Origin: Colwellia sp. Arc7-635
Lineage (GTDB): Bacteria; Pseudomonadota; Gammaproteobacteria; Enterobacterales; Alteromonadaceae
NCBI RefSeq assembly: GCF_003971255.1
Contig: NZ_CP034660.1
Location: forward strand, 3,100,001-3,164,000
Direction of reading: 5' to 3'
Length of the DNA stretch: 64,000 bases
The position numbers were made by a program, and so were the translations under genes. This document shows, piece by piece, positions 17,668 to 26,611 of the stretch. Within the stretch, counting starts at the first letter, position 1, and each line of letters starts with the position of its first letter. The notes beneath the pieces are model-generated. The model did no database searches. It saw nothing but the letters and a program-made list of their open reading frames with translations, and had not been told where the DNA came from.

Positions 17668-19090
17668 CTAATAGCCCATGGTTTTCTTAACAAGCGCATT
17701 CTTTATTGCTGGGATATAGTTCAGCACTTTTAAGGCGATATTACGCCCTGCCACCAACGGCGGTAACTGATTAGAAAACAACGTCACTAAAGAGTCGGTT
17801 AAGGTGATCACTTGCTGTTGGTCTTGTTGTCGAATCTTGGCGTATTGCATTAAATTGGCGAACGCGCCAATGTCTTGTTGGTTTGCTAATGCTTTTTTAA
17901 TCACTTGTGTCATATCGCTTACATCACGCAAGCCCAAATTAAAGCCTTGCCCGGCAATGGGATGAATGGTGTGAGAAGCATTACCAACTAATGCCATGCG
18001 GTGATAAACCTGCTCGTTTGCTTGCACGAGTTTAAGCGGGTAAATAGCTCGCTTACCCACTTGAGTAATATTACCCAACCAATGACCAAAAGACTGCGCA
18101 AGTTGCTGAGCAAATTCATCATCAGATAACTGTAGCATTTGCTCAGCCAATGCCGGTGTTAACGTCCATACGAGTGAGCAACGCCCTGCACTTTTTTGTT
18201 GTGTGGACGCGTTCTGTTGTGTGTCACGCGTATTTGGCGCTGCTGACAATGGCAACATGGCGATAGGGCCCTGTCTCAGTAAAGCGCTCGTATGCAACAT
18301 TGTTATGATGAATAGCCGTGCCTACATTAACGATTAACGCGCTTTGATTATAATCACTGCTGGTGCTTTTAATATTGGCAAACTCACGACAAGGAGAGTT
18401 AGCGCCATCACAGGCAAGCAATAAAGCTGCGGTTAATTTTGTACCAGAGTTAAGTTCAACATTAACCTGCGTTGCTTGCCATTGTATTTGTTCAATACTG
18501 TCGGGAGTAAACCAAGTGATGTTATTTTTAGTGGCTAACGCTTTTAAAAACGCCGCGCCAATAACTGACATTTCAGCAACATAACCGAGCGCGTCAACAT
18601 GGTGTTGCCCAGCATATAACCGAGCTTTACCGTAGTAACCCCGATCAGAAATATGAATATTGTTAATAGGTTCGGCATGTTCATGTAAATACTGCCATGC
18701 ACCGACACGGTCTAAATAGGCAGCACTACCGTGTGATAGTGCTAAAACGCGATCATCAAAACTACGTGACGGATCAGTTAATACTGGGTTTGCTTCAACA
18801 ATCGCTATTTTCAATGGCGCTTGTTGGTGATCAAGCAATGCTGATAAACTTAATGCCATTAAAGCACCTGATAAGCCACCGCCAGAAATGATAACGTCAA
18901 AACGATTATCGCTGTTGGTATTAGCTTCAGCATTACTCTGGTCAGTACTACCCTGGTCAGCAGTAATAGTTTGGTCAGTACTATTCTGGTTAGTACTAGT
19001 TCGGCCAGTATTAGTCTGCTTATCACTGTTTATTGTCGAGCTATGGGCTGCTTGACTTTTCGGTGCTGAGATATGCGCGCTTTTATCCAT
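17668..19090 (-). pseudogene. ubiH: 2-octaprenyl-6-methoxyphenol hydroxylase, one-base frameshift
   Basis: FAD monooxygenase of ubiquinone synthesis read in two frames. The first (from 19090) carries the FAD motif GGGLSGA and reads into ERFTETGP; the other continues with IAMLPLSAAP and the GNASHTIHPIAGQGFNLG motif to 17668. Removing one base in GGGCCC at 18266-18271 restores one protein. Because UbiH matters for aerobic respiration, a sequencing error is more likely than decay. The N terminus is unusual: about 60 Ser/Thr/Asn/Gln-rich residues precede the first FAD strand, where family members normally start just before it. Confidence 0.85.
18900..19030. repeat. Degenerate short tandem repeat in the ubiH N-terminal extension
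   Basis: On the + strand CTGGTCAGTACTA-like units recur four to five times with changes between about 18938 and 19012. They encode the low-complexity Thr/Asp/Gln-rich N terminus of UbiH, suggesting growth by slippage. Confidence 0.55.
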
Positions 19091-19340
19091 TGTTAACCTA
19101 TTAATTTAACGTTTTGGTCATTTAACCTGTTTGGTAATTTACCGAGCTTGGCCAATACTTACTATGCTGGGTGGCGTACTTTTAAAAGTAAAACGTTCTA
19201 ATTCGCTACCATTAAATTCAGTAGCGTTGGACCAGATTCAATTGATTTTTTTCACTTTGATTCTCTTTGACTTAACCTAATCAAATCCAATTAAGTCCAA
19301 CCAAATCCAATCCAATTAAGTCCAACCCAATAGCGCTAAG
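19091..19340. repeat. Intergenic region with short direct repeats between pepP and ubiH
   Basis: AT-rich spacer. AATCCAATTAAGTCCAACC occurs twice in close succession (about 19285-19330), plus partial copies such as AACCTAATCAAATCC. No gene is visible. Confidence 0.5.
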
Positions 19341-20681
19341 TTACTTAGCCATCACCGCTTCAATATCAACAATCGTTTTTGGTGCGTTGACGGTTAAGTT
19401 TTCAAAACCTGTTGCTGTAACGGCAATATTGTCTTCTATGCGAATGCCAATGCCACGCCATTTTTCGTCTACGCTACGATCTGACAATGGGATATAAATA
19501 CCCGGTTCAATGGTCAGTACCATACCTTGGGCAAAAGGACGTAATTGCTCTCTTTGCTCATTTGGCTGGTAATCACCAACATCATGCACATCAAGCCCTA
19601 ACCAATGACCAAGGCCGTGAATAAAGTATTTTTTACATGCTTTTTGCGCTAATAATACGCTTAAATCACCAGTCAGTATGCCTAAGTCATACAAACCTTT
19701 CGTGAGAAAATTACACACAATACGATTTAGCCCTGCAAATGTTTGTGTTGGCTTTATTGCGTTAATAGCAAGGTTTTGGCTATCAAGTACCAATTGATAA
19801 ATCGTTTTTTGAGCATCGTTGAAGCGCCCGTTAATCGGGAATGTGCGTGTAATGTCTGCCGCATAACCGGCAAGTTCACCACCGGCATCAATCAATAGTA
19901 AGTCGTTGTTATTTAACTTATCGTCATTGTCGGTGTAATGCAAAATGTTAGCATTATCGCCGCCCGCAACAATAGAACCATAAGCAGGATAACGAGCGCC
20001 ATTCGTGGCAAACTCGTGCAATAGCTCGGCTTCTATTTGATACTCGAATTTTCCAGCTTGCGCTTGTTGCATCGCTCTTTGGTGTGCTGCGCCGCTAATA
20101 AGATTAACTTGGCGCATAATATCGAGCTCAGCAGTCGACTTATGTAAGCGCATTTCAGCAATTATATCGCTACAATCAACTAATGATGATGGTGCTTTAA
20201 CGCCCATACGAGCAGATTTTCTAATTTGGCTTAACCAGGCAAGCACTTGCTGTTCGAATTCGTTTTTTTCTTGTAAACAAATTAAAACCGAGGTTTTACC
20301 GACCATTAAAGGTAATAATTGATCTTCAATTTCCACTAAGCTAAAGCATTGATCAACATGATAGTTTTCAATCGCTTTTACTTGTCCAACTCGTCGGCCA
20401 TGCCAAACTTCTTGTAATGAGTCTTTTTCTCGAGAAAATAAAATACTTTGCGCAGGTTTTGATGTGTCACCTTTGATCATGGCTAAAACAGCATCAGGCT
20501 CGTTAAATCCGGTCAGGTAATAAAAGTTTTTATTTTGGCAAAATGGATATTCGGTGTCATTACTGCGAGTCACTTCTTTTGAGGCAGTAATTAGCGCAAT
20601 ACTGTTTTCAGGCATTTGCGCAATGAAGTTATTTCTGCGCTGACAAAATTCAGCAACGGGTAATAGGGTATTTTTTATCAT
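19341..20681 (-). CDS. pepP: Xaa-Pro aminopeptidase (aminopeptidase P)
   Basis: Cytoplasmic dimanganese peptidase that removes N-terminal residues preceding proline; 446 residues. An N-terminal creatinase-like domain is followed by the pita-bread domain with metal ligands in LLIDAGGE and AADITRTFP (two Asp), HGLGHWLG (His), TIEPGIY (Glu) and IRIEDN (Glu). The position between ygfB and ubiH matches E. coli. Confidence 0.94.
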   Translation of the reverse strand: MIKNTLLPVAEFCQRRNNFIAQMPENSIALITASKEVTRSNDTEYPFCQNKNFYYLTGFNEPDAVLAMIKGDTSKPAQSILFSREKDSLQEVWHGRRVGQVKAIENYHVDQCFSLVEIEDQLLPLMVGKTSVLICLQEKNEFEQQVLAWLSQIRKSARMGVKAPSSLVDCSDIIAEMRLHKSTAELDIMRQVNLISGAAHQRAMQQAQAGKFEYQIEAELLHEFATNGARYPAYGSIVAGGDNANILHYTDNDDKLNNNDLLLIDAGGELAGYAADITRTFPINGRFNDAQKTIYQLVLDSQNLAINAIKPTQTFAGLNRIVCNFLTKGLYDLGILTGDLSVLLAQKACKKYFIHGLGHWLGLDVHDVGDYQPNEQREQLRPFAQGMVLTIEPGIYIPLSDRSVDEKWRGIGIRIEDNIAVTATGFENLTVNAPKTIVDIEAVMAK

Positions 20682-20730
20682 GGCTACCAGCTCACTGTTT
20701 TAGCATTAAGTATTCATTTAAAGAAGATGC

Positions 20731-20774
20731 TGTGGGCTAAGTTAAAGCTTAATCTAACCTTAATTTAGCCCACA
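20731..20774. other. Inverted repeat between ygfB and pepP
   Basis: TGTGGGCTAA (20731-20740) and TTAGCCCACA (20765-20774) form a perfect 10-bp stem with a 24-base loop. It lies 20 bases after the ygfB stop on the minus strand without a strong T-run, so it could be an mRNA 3'-end stabiliser or a weak terminator. Confidence 0.5.
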
Positions 20775-20793
20775 ATAATTATTGGCATTAAGC

Positions 20794-21363
20794 TTAATGT
20801 AGCGTTGCTTCTTTGTCCTGCGAGACTGGCGGCACACCTAACTCGGTAAAACAAAGTAGTGCTGAAATTCTCACGTACTCGGCAATTTCGAAATAGGCTT
20901 GTTCAGTGGCTTCGTTTTCTTCCATTTCGTCTGACAAGTTAGCAATTTCACCAAAATCTGTCAGTACTTCTTTAACATCGTCAGAAAAAGTCGTGTTTTT
21001 GGTTTGCTGTAAACCAAAACCTAAATTAAAACCTTGTACCCACTGACCTAATGCATGACCACGTTCAATAATTGAGTCGTCGTCATCAGGCAGCATTAAT
21101 TGGAAACTGTATGATTCATCGAGAATCTGTTGCCAAATATCACTGTAAAGGTCTTTTACTAAACTTTTAACGTTGCTAGGCAAGCCCTCAGCATTATTAA
21201 GCATGTCATTTACCATAGCGATATAGTCGCTACTTTCAAAGACAAAGCCTGCAGCGATCAAGCCTGTAAGCACACCATGAATTTCAGAAGCATGTGCCTC
21301 TACGCTTTCAGTGGTTAAAATTGCTTGTGCGGAGGAAAAGTCTAACGTGGTGCTATCAGCCAT
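20794..21363 (-). CDS. ygfB: YgfB/UPF0149 family protein
   Basis: 189-residue acidic protein of the UPF0149/YecA family, with the family-typical GVLTGL and LGQWVQGFNLGFGLQ segments. Biochemical role unsettled; in Pseudomonas a YgfB protein affects ampDh3 expression and beta-lactam tolerance. It is divergent from zapA across a 236-base gap, as in E. coli, and probably opens the ygfB-pepP-ubiH-ubiI group. Confidence 0.88.
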   Translation of the reverse strand: MADSTTLDFSSAQAILTTESVEAHASEIHGVLTGLIAAGFVFESSDYIAMVNDMLNNAEGLPSNVKSLVKDLYSDIWQQILDESYSFQLMLPDDDDSIIERGHALGQWVQGFNLGFGLQQTKNTTFSDDVKEVLTDFGEIANLSDEMEENEATEQAYFEIAEYVRISALLCFTELGVPPVSQDKEATLH

Positions 21364-21599
21364 AAAAATATCAGTTCAATCAGGGGTATATTGCTGGCTA
21401 TCTTAACATTGGCCTAGCATTGATTCCAGAAAAAAACCATAGAGATCACTTGCATAGTGTAACACTCACCGTTATAGTTCCACTTTATGGCATACTAAGT
21501 TTTAGTTATCCTTACTTTTCTTAGTATTAGAAGCCAGTAACGCAATATTTTGAACTGACCATTCAATAAACTAAATAATGCATTGAGAATAGTTAAGTA

Positions 21600-21905
21600 A
21601 TGAGCCAACACACTGTAACAATAAATGTTGCCAACAAACGATTAAAAATCGCTTGTCCTGCTGGCCATGAATCTGCTTTATTACAAGCAGCAAGTGAGAT
21701 AAACAGACGCTTGGACCATGACTCAAAGAAAAAGCACTCGGCAAAAACACCTGAACAAGCATTAGTGATGATGTCATTAAACCTTGCTGATGACTTGATT
21801 AAAGCACGTGCTGAATTAGAGCTTGAGCGCGAAAAAATGCAAAGCAAAATAGAATTGCTTCAAGACACCATAGAACTTGCCGTAAATCCTACTAAAACCG
21901 CTTAA
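21600..21905 (+). CDS. zapA: Cell division protein ZapA
   Basis: 101-residue FtsZ-ring stabiliser. The N-terminal part (VTINVANKRLKIACPAGHE) is the globular head; the C-terminal half from about residue 55 is a charged coiled coil. It bundles FtsZ filaments together with ZapB. It is divergent from ygfB and followed by 6S RNA, the conserved gammaproteobacterial order. Confidence 0.93.
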   Translation: MSQHTVTINVANKRLKIACPAGHESALLQAASEINRRLDHDSKKKHSAKTPEQALVMMSLNLADDLIKARAELELEREKMQSKIELLQDTIELAVNPTKTA

Positions 21906-22011
21906 TCTGTACTGACACTCCTCGTTAAATTTCATCGAATAGTATTTCTGTTTAAAGAAACTTCAATTTGTTCAAGCATTAAGCAGTCAGGTCTTACAAG
22001 TAATAAAAGAC

Positions 22012-22040
22012 TTAATTCGGCCGACATTATTCGCTATAAT
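22012..22040 (+). promoter_or_regulatory. Promoter of ssrS
   Basis: TTAATT (22012-22017) and a perfect TATAAT (22035-22040) are 17 bases apart, predicting a start near 22047, exactly where the 6S closing stem begins. Confidence 0.72.
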
Positions 22041-22046
22041 GATTTT

Positions 22047-22228
22047 GCTTTCTGGGGTGTTCGTTTGTGAACTATGTCCCTGAGCCGATAAGTTTTAACT
22101 AAGGATGTTGATTATTAACTATTGTGCAAGCCCGGCTCGTATCGGGAAGCCTACGGTTAGCATGATATTTCCGCCCTGAACACCCGGTGTTCAGGACTAT
22201 GTGAACGGCGGCACCTTGGAAGGCACTT
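22047..22228 (+). ncRNA. ssrS: 6S RNA
   Basis: About 182 bases, as in E. coli (184). It lies directly after zapA. GCTTTCTGGGGTG at the 5' end pairs with CACCTTGGAAGGC at the 3' end to form the closing stem. The conserved GTCCCTGAGCCGAT block, the AAGCCYACGGTT region and a 9-bp hairpin (CCTGAACAC/GTGTTCAGG) follow. 6S RNA binds sigma70 RNA polymerase as an open-promoter mimic and lowers transcription in stationary phase. The fau gene that usually follows is absent here. Confidence 0.92.
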
Positions 22229-22980
22229 AAATTTCCTCTTCAAATTATTCAACTTCAAATACCACATTAAATATATCAACCATATTTCCGCGCAGCTCTA
22301 GAAAAGCACCCGGTGTTCAGGACTATCTGAACGGCGGCACCTTGGAAGGCACTAAAATTTCCTCTTCAAATTATTCGACCTCAAATACCAAGTTAAATAT
22401 ATCAACCATATTTCCGCGCAACTCTAGAAAAGCACCCGGTATTCAAGACTATCTGAACGGCGGTACCTTGGAAGGCACTTAAATTCCCTCTTGATTAAAT
22501 ATATCAACCATATTTCCGCGCAACTCTAGGAAAGCACCCGGTGTTCAGGACTATGTGAACGGCGGCACCTTGGAAGGTACTTATTCTCTCCTGGTAATCC
22601 AAATACCACATTAAATATATCAACGATATTTCCACGCAGCTCAAGAAAAGCACCCGGTATTCAGGACTATGTGAACGGCGGCACCTTGGAAGGCACTTAA
22701 ATTTCCTCCCGTAATTTACTCAAATACCATATTCAACTAAGATACTTTCAATTAAATATATCAACCATATTTCCGCGCAACTCTAGAAAAGCACCCGGTG
22801 TTCAGGACTATGTGAACGGCGGCACCTTGGAAGGCACTTAATCTCCTCCTGTAATTTACTCAAATACCATATTCAACTAAGATACTTTCAATTAAATATA
22901 TCAACCATATTTCCGCGCAACTCTAGAAAAGCACCCAGTGTTCAGGACTATGTGAACGGCGGCACCTTGGAAGGCACTTA
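22229..22980 (+). repeat. Tandem array of six partial copies of the 6S RNA 3' part
   Basis: A 47-base core beginning CACCCGGTGTTCAGGAC and ending CCTTGGAAGGCACT is present in ssrS (22181-22227) and six more times, starting at 22307, 22433, 22535, 22651, 22792 and 22932. Spacing from one core to the next is 126, 126, 102, 116, 141 and 140 bases. The homology extends upstream to ATATTTCCGC, but CTCTAGAAAAG replaces the left arm of the 6S hairpin. The AT-rich linkers are also similar to one another. A decayed linker without the core follows at about 23037-23075. Function unknown. Confidence 0.9.
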
Positions 22981-23249
22981 AATTCCTCAAGTATTCAAAT
23001 CTATTTTTACTTCCATAGACTAATTTACATCAATTAAAAATATCAGCCATATTTTCGCGCACCTCTGGAAAACAGAACAATGCACGGCTCACTTTATTTA
23101 ACATTAGCGCATGTGTTTGTTTCTCTATCACTTTTCTATTTTTCTATTTTTCTATTTTTCTCTCCATATAATGCAGGACATCCAACAAACAGAGCTTTAA
23201 TTGACTCTTATCACTCATTTTTAAAATAATTAACGTTATACCTTGCAAT

Positions 23250-23274
23250 GCAAATACAAACCATTATCATTTGC
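23250..23274. promoter_or_regulatory. Putative Fur box
   Basis: GCAAAT and ATTTGC form an inverted repeat around ACAAACCATTATC; the reverse strand reads AAATGATAATGG, close to the Fur consensus half GATAATGATAATC. It lies 53 bases before the TonB receptor start, consistent with iron repression. Confidence 0.65.
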
Positions 23275-23326
23275 GTCAAATTTAAAGTCGTCATGTAATT
23301 ATTGTATTTTATAAGGATTTTGTTCA

Positions 23327-25465
23327 ATGAATGTTAAGAACTACTCAATCATCGCACTTGCTGTTTGTGCCACCTTCACCGTTAACGCAAAAGCAGATGA
23401 TCAATCAGCTGATTTTAAAGATATTGAAAGAGTTATTGTTACGGGAAGTCGCATTGAAGAAAGTCTTGATGAAGTACCCGCATCAGTATCAATTATCGAT
23501 AATAAAACCTTAATGCAAGATTTGCTGACATCAGCAGAAATACAAACGATGCTTGCACTTCATGTACCCGGCATGGGTGCTGCAAATACCGGCACTAATA
23601 CTAACTCAGGACAATCTCTGCGTGGCAGAAGTGCATTAGTAATGATTGATGGTGTGCCACAATCAACACCATTGCGTAACGGTAAACTTGGAATACGCTC
23701 ATTAGACCCAAGTGTTATCGAACGTATTGAAGTGATAAAAGGTGCCACCTCTATCTATGGCAATGGTGCTGCTGGCGGTATTATTAATTACATTACGAAA
23801 ACAGCGAGTAGTGAAAAAGCATTATCAGGACGAGTAGCTGTTAGTAGCAGTTTTTCAACCGTCAAGTTTGAAGATAGTGCTGGGCGACGTATTGAAACTG
23901 AAATAGACGGTACGCTAGGAAATTTTGATTACGTGGTTAGTGTTGTTAGCGATGAGTCTGGCGTTGTCCGTGATGCTGAAGGCGATGTACTAGGACTGAC
24001 TTATGGCTTATCAAATTTCAAATCTGATAATCTATTTACCAAATTCAATTATTACATTGATGACTTACGTTCACTGCAATTTAGTTATAATTACTTTGAA
24101 GGTCAGCAAGATAGCGACTACATTGCCGTTGAAGGTGATGTAAATTCAGGTATTAAAAGCCATGCAATTGAAAATGTAGACCACATTAAGGTACCTGGTG
24201 ATCCACAAGGTCCTCGTGGTAATCACAATGCAAGATTACAGTATCGTGATATGGAGGTCTTTGATAATACTGACTTTACCGTTGATGCTTATTGGCAGAA
24301 AATCGAAAATGTGTTCTTTTATCATGAAAAATTCAAAGATGACGGGCTAGGTTTTGTTGGTGGTCAGTCGATGATCACGTCAGATAAAACCGGTTTACGT
24401 TTAAACTTTAATACCATTTTTGACTTCGATAACATTGAAACCACACTTATTTATGGTGTTGATATTTTAAATGACACTACCACTCAACCGCTGGTAGATG
24501 GTCGTATGTGGACACCAGAAATGGACATGGATAATATTGCTGGTTATTTACAAGCTAAAGTAATATTCGATGAAAATTGGGTTGTAAAAGCAGGTGTACG
24601 TCAAGAATCAATAGAAATTGGCGTTGATGATTTTAGTACCCTGATGATCTGTAATCCCGGTAAAGATTGTACAGTACCAGTCGCAGTTTCAGGCGGAACA
24701 CTAAAATATGACGCCACGACTTATAATGTTGGCCTACGTTATAGTAATAGTGAGCTTTTCAGCCCATTTATTAGTTACTCAGAAGGTTTTGATATTGCCA
24801 ATGTCGGTAGCTTATTGCGTGATGCTAAATTCAATCAATTAAGCCAACTTGATACTGAAGCTTCTATTGTTAAAAATTCTGAAATCGGTTTCAGCAGCCA
24901 ATACGAAAATATTCACCTAGAAATGGCTGCATTTTATTCTACCAATAACTATGGCGGCAATATGGTGGAAGATCCTGTCACCGGCACCTATAGGCTAGAG
25001 CGTGCACCGCAAAAAATATGGGGCTACGAAGCAGCCGTTGACATGGCATTAACCGAAAGTATTGATGTTGGGTTTAGTTACAGTTGGTCTGAAGGTAAAA
25101 ACAAAGCTAACGATACTTATCTTGATGGCGGCTCTATTAACCCACCTAAAGTTACCGCTTATGCTAATTATCAAGCGAGTGAAAAGCTACGTTTAGCGAT
25201 TAATTATATTGGGGTTGGTAGTCGTGATCGCTTTGAATCTGTTGATGGTAAATATAGTGGTAGAACAGCACCAGTTTCGTCATATAATGTAATAAATGCA
25301 TCGGCTAGCTACAACATTAGTGAAGAGTTACGTGTATCTGCAGGTATCGAAAACCTGTTTAACAATGATTACTTTTCTCATATTGCTCAGTCACATACAT
25401 TTACTGGCTGGAATGTTAAAGGTAAAGGACGCACGATGAACTTAGGTTTGGCTTATAATTTTTAA
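23327..25465 (+). CDS. TonB-dependent outer membrane receptor, probably for an iron chelate
   Basis: 712 residues. A signal peptide ends near residue 23 (VNAKA). A TonB-box-like IERVIVTG is near residues 32-39, then a plug domain (SLRGRSALVMIDGVP, ERIEVIKGATSIYGNGAAGG) and a long beta-barrel ending in NLGLAYNF with the terminal Phe needed for barrel assembly. A Fur-like box precedes it and a PepSY membrane protein follows, so a siderophore or other iron complex is the likely cargo; the exact ligand cannot be read. The two genes probably form one operon. Confidence 0.9.
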   Translation: MNVKNYSIIALAVCATFTVNAKADDQSADFKDIERVIVTGSRIEESLDEVPASVSIIDNKTLMQDLLTSAEIQTMLALHVPGMGAANTGTNTNSGQSLRGRSALVMIDGVPQSTPLRNGKLGIRSLDPSVIERIEVIKGATSIYGNGAAGGIINYITKTASSEKALSGRVAVSSSFSTVKFEDSAGRRIETEIDGTLGNFDYVVSVVSDESGVVRDAEGDVLGLTYGLSNFKSDNLFTKFNYYIDDLRSLQFSYNYFEGQQDSDYIAVEGDVNSGIKSHAIENVDHIKVPGDPQGPRGNHNARLQYRDMEVFDNTDFTVDAYWQKIENVFFYHEKFKDDGLGFVGGQSMITSDKTGLRLNFNTIFDFDNIETTLIYGVDILNDTTTQPLVDGRMWTPEMDMDNIAGYLQAKVIFDENWVVKAGVRQESIEIGVDDFSTLMICNPGKDCTVPVAVSGGTLKYDATTYNVGLRYSNSELFSPFISYSEGFDIANVGSLLRDAKFNQLSQLDTEASIVKNSEIGFSSQYENIHLEMAAFYSTNNYGGNMVEDPVTGTYRLERAPQKIWGYEAAVDMALTESIDVGFSYSWSEGKNKANDTYLDGGSINPPKVTAYANYQASEKLRLAINYIGVGSRDRFESVDGKYSGRTAPVSSYNVINASASYNISEELRVSAGIENLFNNDYFSHIAQSHTFTGWNVKGKGRTMNLGLAYNF

Positions 25466-25525
25466 TGTTAAAAACTTTTTATAACAATAGCGCTTTTTTT
25501 GATGAATATCGTCGGATCATAACCT

Positions 25526-26611
25526 GTGTTTAAGCAATGGTTTAGGCGTGTTCATCTTATCCTAGCGATACTTATGGTTTTCTTTTTGATTAACCTAAGT
25601 ATTTCTGGGGCGCTATTAGTATTCGGTAAGGAAATACAAAATAACATCCAGCCGGAACAATGGCAGGTTAAACCTCAAGTCAATTTACTACCGCTTTCTC
25701 AGTTAATCTCGATAGCTGAAACTAGCCGTGGTCATTCAGTGAAACGCATTCAATTAGCCCCCGAAAAAGATAAAGCGTGGCAAATCCAATTCGATAGTGG
25801 TGAACAACTGAGTATTAATCCTTTTAATGGTGAAATTCTCCATCGTTATTTAGAAGAAGATAGTTTTTATGGTTTTGTAATGGCTTGGCATCGCTGGTTA
25901 TTGCTGCGCGATGATTCAAACGAAAAACCACTGAAAATATTAATATCGATCACCAGTTTGCTGTTGATTATAGAAATGATCATAGGTTTATCGCTGTGGC
26001 TTAAACCCAAAAAGAGACTTAAGCGCTTAAAAATAAATCTTAAAGCGAAGCCAAGAGTAAAGTATTACCAATTGCATACCGTCGTTGGCGTATTTGCCTT
26101 TATCCCTTTATTACTCATTGCTGTTTCTGGTATGGCGTTTAACTGGCAAAGCCAAATAAAGTGGGGGCTAGAAACGTTAGCTGCACAACCGGTTGAACAA
26201 ATCCAACACCCTACGATTGCTGATACAGAGCAAACGCTGAAATTAGATCTCGCATTTAGTCATGGTATAAAAAGCATGGGCGAAGGTGAGTTATACCGAA
26301 TTTATTTACCTGTTGGCGATCAAGCGCTAAAACTTAGAGTTAAAATGCCTGATGAGTTTTTTGCTTATAGTTGGGTATGGATAAATCCATATACTGGCGA
26401 AGTGATAAAAACCTACGATGCCAGCACTGCAAACTTAGCAACCCGAATTTGGAATTTTAAATATACCTTTCATATTGGTAACTTTTTTGGCACAGGCTTT
26501 AAGTTTGTCTGGCTATTAGTCGCGTTATTACCCGCTGCCTTTTCAATCACGGGTCTTTGGCTATTTTTTAAAAGAACTCGACGTAATAAGCCTTTGCCAG
26601 CGACGAGGTAA
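25526..26611 (+). CDS. PepSY-associated transmembrane protein (siderophore iron reductase-like)
   Basis: 361 residues with a GTG start (no in-frame ATG nearby). Four membrane segments are evident, near 11-32, 140-160, 190-208 and 330-352, with PepSY-type periplasmic parts between them. Conserved His residues next to the helices (RRVHLIL, AWHRWLL, QLHTVVGV, FHIGNFFG) suit haem binding in this family. Members such as FoxB/PiuB-type proteins reduce or release iron from siderophores in the periplasm. Sixty bases after the TonB receptor, likely co-transcribed. Confidence 0.82.
   Translation: MFKQWFRRVHLILAILMVFFLINLSISGALLVFGKEIQNNIQPEQWQVKPQVNLLPLSQLISIAETSRGHSVKRIQLAPEKDKAWQIQFDSGEQLSINPFNGEILHRYLEEDSFYGFVMAWHRWLLLRDDSNEKPLKILISITSLLLIIEMIIGLSLWLKPKKRLKRLKINLKAKPRVKYYQLHTVVGVFAFIPLLLIAVSGMAFNWQSQIKWGLETLAAQPVEQIQHPTIADTEQTLKLDLAFSHGIKSMGEGELYRIYLPVGDQALKLRVKMPDEFFAYSWVWINPYTGEVIKTYDASTANLATRIWNFKYTFHIGNFFGTGFKFVWLLVALLPAAFSITGLWLFFKRTRRNKPLPATR

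Follow-up and report, generated by a model that had tools for sequence, protein, structure and literature searches.

Tandem copies of the 6S RNA 3' end behind ssrS in Colwellia sp. Arc7-635 resemble a stack of transcription stop signals more than they do additional regulatory RNAs

The 6S RNA gene (ssrS) of the marine bacterium Colwellia sp. Arc7-635 is followed by a tandem array built from its own 3' end. The stretch of DNA analysed here, referred to as the window, comprises 64,000 nucleotides of a genome that consists of one contig (4,741,350 bases, completeness 100). An Rfam search of the window returns a single 6S gene (RF00013; gathering score 46.4), and no downstream copy in the window reaches the gathering score; the copies are without the 5' half of the RNA. 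Six further copies of the last quarter of ssrS (46 nt, the core) lie downstream of the intact gene (Table 1). Their 3'-terminal blocks are spaced 126, 126, 102, 116, 141 and 140 nt apart, counted from the gene, and are 86–98% identical over 58 nt. The linker between them, 43 nt long, is present in seven copies with 84–100% identity to a reference copy, and Tandem Repeats Finder scores at the array reach 959. An earlier note made from the letters of this DNA had described six extra copies at 102–141-nt intervals plus a seventh linker, and all of these were found. An assembly artefact is unlikely because two congeners that are also listed with one contig (G003 and G005) carry arrays of 7 and 4 copies; the ssrS 3'-end array is confirmed as real.

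Of the flanking open reading frames (ORFs), the upstream one is presumably zapA and the downstream one presumably TonB-dependent-receptor-like. Tandem TTTTCTAT octamers (3.8 copies, 23132–23161) lie between the array and the latter gene. The array had been said to occupy the usual place of fau. A motif scan of the next ORFs places fau immediately after ssrS elsewhere in the family and the order but in no genome of the window's genus, where ssrS is followed by murI, other genes or a reverse-strand gene. Among the relatives compared, genes after array loci have either orientation.

Table 1. Features of the ssrS locus (positions in the window)
Feature	Position	Strand	Remark
Upstream ORF, presumably zapA	21600..21905	+	named by sequence
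ssrS, intact 6S RNA gene	22046..22226	+	RF00013, 96.7 bits
Segment A of ssrS	22162..22174	+	ATGATATTTCCGC; resembled by left part of D
Core	22181..22226	+	3'-terminal 46 nt of ssrS, the copied part
Linker/D 1	22263..22305	+	
Core copy 1	22307..22352	+	
Linker/D 2	22389..22431	+	
Core copy 2	22433..22478	+	
Linker/D 3	22491..22533	+	
Core copy 3	22535..22580	+	
Linker/D 4	22607..22649	+	
Core copy 4	22651..22696	+	
Linker/D 5	22748..22790	+	
Core copy 5	22792..22837	+	
Linker/D 6	22888..22930	+	
Core copy 6	22932..22977	+	
Terminal linker/D	23030..23072	+	no core behind
Downstream ORF, presumably TonB-dependent-receptor-like	23327..25465	+	

The gene runs from segment A through the 5' arm of a hairpin into the core, and each unit runs from a spacer through an element D into the core, with D made up of a look-alike of A and a segment x (GCRCANCTCTAGAAAAG in most species). 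Of the closing stem, the copies retain the 3' arm and not the 5' arm, and one half of the GTTCA hairpin is also missing from them, an anatomy that the earlier note had read correctly. The last linker, described there as decayed, is 88% identical and not specially decayed; the array order is gene-spacer-D-(core-spacer-D)n, so that a D without a core is expected at its end. The accompanying claim that cores are conserved above linkers needs correction for the right part of the linker, D, which is itself conserved between species; the remaining spacer is not. Across 29 genomes, the 28 nt preceding the first core have a mean pairwise identity of 0.605 (0.376 when shuffled), and neither the next 28 nt upstream (0.427 versus 0.419) nor the trailer start (0.445 versus 0.434) shows between-species conservation. 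Short, split or contig-end units were excluded from this comparison, from the segment-x and 6S-pairing analyses and from the selection of units for folding. The left arm of D matches the 6S arm of its own genome in 6.50 of 9 letters (34 genomes), compared to 6.11 when permuted over all genomes (0 of 2000 permutations as high) and 6.28 when permuted within genera (p 0.0015), which is modest tracking. When segment x is compared with the closing strand as a possible remnant of it with less G, p < 0.05 is reached in 6 of 30 related genomes (median p 0.18). Short inserts occur within the closing-stem strand of copies in G242, G371, G416, G049 and G452 (loci L176, L187, L192, L052 and L201), some with complementary ends. 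By eye, MITE-like repeats lie between or behind units, in or adjoining the array, at L035 (G002) and L038 (G005), with complementary ends around GTAGGGGCGACTTCAGTCGCC and GTAGGTCGGGCTTCAGCCCGTC, respectively.

Tandem copies of a gene end could indicate a selfish repeat, as the earlier note had proposed, or a mobile or site-specifically integrated small element with the ssrS 3' end as its attachment site. Integrative elements in RNA genes restore the 3' end of the gene, and the unit likewise restores that of ssrS. However, all seven matches to the unit in its own genome lie at ssrS, the additional matches detected in relatives are either at ssrS or at the end of a contig, 21500–24000 contains no inverted repeat pair, and no integrase was recognised by eye among the ORFs of 18500–26500. 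These results give no support to a dispersed selfish repeat of the REP or MITE kind and make an integrated element extremely unlikely.

Unit DNA matches 23 of 147 genomes, including its own and all 16 congeners searched, some of them only through the gene. In a gapped search with each gene's own core, at least one downstream copy was found at 44 of 139 ssrS loci, after removal of G258, which has nothing downstream. Copies occur at 18 of the 101 loci sampled regardless of match and at 26 of the 38 chosen via BLAST; the 101 match-blind loci are those of 100 relatives and the window, out of 141 genomes with a 6S match, the remainder all being from other families. Arrays are found mainly in four genera of one family, the window's genus and g25, g34 and g38. 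Within the window's genus, clear copies (up to 7) are present in 10 of 17 genomes, decayed ones only in three (G007, G011 and G012) and none in four (G004, G008, G009 and G014). Outside the main genera, copies occur in G096 (g60), and ssrS of G067 (g52) is followed by two weak copies of its 3' part (L101), possibly another independent array. The g60 lineage, which belongs to another family, has copies in six of seven genomes, with five at 82-nt spacing in G120, and its units repeat the anatomy of upstream-segment look-alike, altered 5' hairpin arm and 3' core. A search by exact pattern, which misses further carriers, located the identical D-core junction in Cognaticolwellia mytili KCTC 52417, an uncultured Colwellia MAG and Colwellia piezophila ATCC BAA-637, in which the contig starts inside the array. 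A match assigned to 'Opitutae' (L136) was discarded; its 8-kb stretch shows no 6S and the match looks like chance.

The presence of 0 to 7 copies within one genus, together with decayed remnants, is consistent with neutral tandem-repeat turnover, in which a slippage-prone 3' flank would grow and shrink, gene conversion would keep the copies similar to the gene and only harmlessness to 6S would be selected. This is the main rival to a role in termination, and we consider it possible though on balance doubtful. Conservation of D across genera, when the other spacer sequence is not conserved, argues against it. D-like stretches also exist behind ssrS in some genomes without an intact core copy, and their evidence divides. 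The single stretches of G011 and G012 fail to track the 6S of their genomes (7 of 13 letters), in line with neutral turnover, whereas those of G053 and G063, each the best match chosen within 200 nt, do track it, with 11 and 12 of the 13 letters, respectively, a level reached by 0 of 100 shuffles in either genome. The core-less stretches of the latter two loci (L053 and L097) lie just behind ssrS and could be either what is left of an array since lost or an element under constraint.

The copies are nearest to the 6S of their own species in 31 of 33 genomes, ties included (75 copies), with a mean identity of 0.922 to their own 6S versus 0.801 to that of other species. G007, G011, G096 and copies aligned over <40 nt were left out of this test, and ties were accepted as best match in G205, G332, G361 and G431, each of which ties with a genome of identical core. 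Neutral turnover would also produce such tracking. Compared to their own gene, the copies lose G on the RNA strand: 86 G were lost and 11 gained, and 27 C were lost and 34 gained (39 genomes, counted once per genome, position and base); the decayed or other-lineage arrays of G007, G011, G012, G067 and G096 were left out here and in the spacer and downstream-composition array counts. G loss exceeds C loss in 25 genomes, falls below it in one and ties in 13, to which we attach no probability because the genomes are related. Losses are most frequent at core positions 5, 6, 8, 13, 14 and 20, all of which are G in 39 of 39 genes. In the g60 copies, 26 G and 12 C were lost, and the spacers contain 30.4% C and 8.3% G. 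Strand-specific G loss, which the earlier note did not foresee, points to a termination or trailer function. Neutral turnover does not easily give a loss that is specific to G and to one strand and recurs in a second lineage; moreover, the first core positions, which are nearest to the non-homologous segment, are barely changed and the neighbouring G positions are changed, unlike a conversion gradient.

Strand-biased mutation tied to heavy transcription could remove G from an array that has no termination role, and the bias becomes weaker farther from the array, in the way expected of transcription. Transcription-linked deamination, however, is expected to yield C to T on the RNA-like strand, and the opposite was found, with 63 G to A and 13 C to T substitutions in the 39 genomes. 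G is also mostly kept in the copied closing strand. We therefore regard this mutational origin as quite improbable.

The spacers are poor in G, rich in YC and scarcely foldable. The 92 spacers contain 24.0% C and 9.1% G, compared to 14.5% C and 18.0% G in the 60 nt that follow each of 33 long ORFs in the window, and C minus G of the array exceeds that of all 2460 overlapping stretches of the same length on both strands. Behind the last core, G climbs from 7.0% to 18.5% within 360 nt. Trailers of array-free ssrS genes show the same but weaker trend (11.3% to 20.8%) and are also C-over-G, so that spacers may simply inherit their composition, as neutral turnover would have it. The six spacers longer than 65 nt fold with an average of −1.5 kcal/mol, compared to a mean of −13.0 in 80-nt controls (0.1% as weak), and the first two spacers have no fold at all. 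YC dimers number 15.2 per 100 in spacers versus 8.5 in controls, and chains of six YC at 9–13 nt number 0.83 versus 0.10 per 100. When cores are included, 120-nt stretches of the array fold moderately weakly, with 15% of controls weaker. No intrinsic terminator was found in 21900–23400, where 1.4 are expected by chance. C>G bubbles rank 129 (mid-array) and 5 (array end) among 3050, and single bubbles are ordinary in size. Among loci with at least 600 nt downstream, the bubbles have a median length of 202 nt behind the 32 ssrS genes with an array and 188.5 nt behind the 98 without one, their area does not differ significantly (p 0.078), and no correlation of area with copy number is seen (rho 0.24, p 0.18). 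A gene for a Rho RNA-binding domain is present in the genome. Rho utilization (rut) sites have been characterized as C-rich, G-poor and unstructured, with YC repeats and a termination zone that follows (PMC9160355). The array shows these properties of composition, being C-rich, G-poor, unstructured in its spacers and supplied with YC dimers.

The possibility that the array yields short RNAs that compete with 6S was raised in the earlier note. In silico, units pair with the 6S 5' half at a mean of −41.4 kcal/mol, compared to −46.1 for the gene's own 3' half and −29.6 for shuffled units, and in 11 of 35 genomes unit pairing is at least as strong as that of the own half. Processed unit RNAs or read-through RNA might act as decoys in 6S folding or polymerase binding, and units do not have the 5' arm of the 3' hairpin. 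Yet this pairing follows from units being copies, and closing-strand inserts interrupt the copies of several species. Promoter-like sites in the array are not in excess (6 versus 4.9 ± 2.3 by chance); none lies in a core copy and one (23024–23053) overlaps the terminal linker. A conserved local fold of the unit was sought and rejected (−0.42 kcal/mol and four pairs in 24 of 30 units, with no pair changed on both sides). Decoy RNAs are thus quite unlikely. A 3' stem-loop of 6S is described as forming upon its release (PMC10406553). Units might represent alternative 6S 3' halves without the release hairpin, which would generate or capture a form of 6S that is hard for polymerase to release, through pairing with the 6S 5' half in the read-through RNA or in trans as processed pieces. 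If so, the strength of the hold of 6S on polymerase would be adjusted through the number of copies; we judge this more speculative model to be decidedly unlikely.

The earlier note knew no described case of such an array, but tandem 3'-end copies exist at E. coli rnpB and tyrT/tyrV, which are described repeats whose sequences were read here. To our knowledge, tandem 3'-end copies behind stable-RNA genes have been known only from these two E. coli loci, and no report of ssrS 3'-end arrays was found in open-access PMC by title or abstract start. Like ssrS in the window, E. coli rnpB (M1 RNA) is directly followed by tandem copies of the gene's 3' part, three in number, in which the upstream block is unchanged and the core is present, but the short internal segment that separates them in the gene is replaced by a longer, A-rich segment. 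Each rnpB unit, in contrast, has an intrinsic-terminator-like hairpin followed by T's, the last being degenerate, whereas ssrS units belong to a different gene and have a G-poor trailer that is rut-like in composition and no intrinsic terminator. At tyrT/tyrV (RttR, tpr), copies of the tRNA 3' end, three behind tyrV and one between tyrT and tyrV, also combine an upstream-part look-alike with an inserted stretch before the 3' end; the insert differs in being far longer, G- and C-rich, and annotated with an sRNA and a small protein gene. The ssrS array belongs with these stable-RNA 3'-end repeats in having tandem partial copies and, by eye, an altered internal segment. All three loci (E. coli K-12 L138 and L139, and ssrS) combine an upstream look-alike, a replaced or inserted segment and a 3' core, and a common mode of origin is possible. 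In the genome of Colwellia sp. Arc7-635, rnpB is followed by an inverted repeat and then T's, with no gene-end repeat in the stretch read downstream, and a crude script flags tail matches 516–620 nt away at 10 of 30 tRNA loci examined (of 90). E. coli ssrS itself, the same gene, reportedly undergoes Rho-dependent termination and 3' processing, to judge from the title of a 2011 paper by Chae.

Taken with that title, the characteristics of rut sites make the unit look like a repeated 6S trailer plus Rho-type terminator, with the 6S 3' end as its boundary. We tentatively favour the view, which falls somewhat short of an even chance, that the array is a reiterated module of 6S 3' end and Rho-type terminator or trailer, with the layout that the rnpB and tyrT repeats have in E. 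coli. Each unit would supply a G-poor, C-containing and nearly unfoldable trailer, the conserved D and a copy of the 6S 3' end, and RNA that reads through ssrS would offer Rho and trimming exonucleases successive landing stretches. Transcription would stop stepwise behind ssrS, and the trailer would be trimmed back to the folded 6S end, which its lack of structure may also ease. Units would have arisen when the 3' part of 6S and its trailer were duplicated in tandem; their number would shift by recombination between units, which would also keep them like their own gene, and selection, rather than mutation, may remove G from the freely changeable part of the copy. The copied closing strand could, speculatively, serve as a pause or release zone. 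Several observations sit poorly with this termination module. The kept closing-strand G and the conserved D are not explained by composition alone, single bubbles are ordinary, and folding with cores included is only moderately weak. The count of zero intrinsic terminators is not far below the chance expectation, arrays precede genes of either orientation, and the four congeners without copies manage copy-free.

The ssrS array is new among stable-RNA 3'-end repeats in its gene, its breadth and its G loss. The repeats resemble a stack of stop signals for transcription more than they do additional regulatory RNAs. A layout known from two E. coli loci is also found at this third RNA gene, where dozens of species from two lineages have it and share the loss of G. 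Its recurrence suggests that a stable-RNA gene can have its 3' end duplicated together with the terminator, as one unit on which selection for termination or trimming acts. The species, whose copy numbers range from 0 to 7, provide a natural series in which such selection could be tested.
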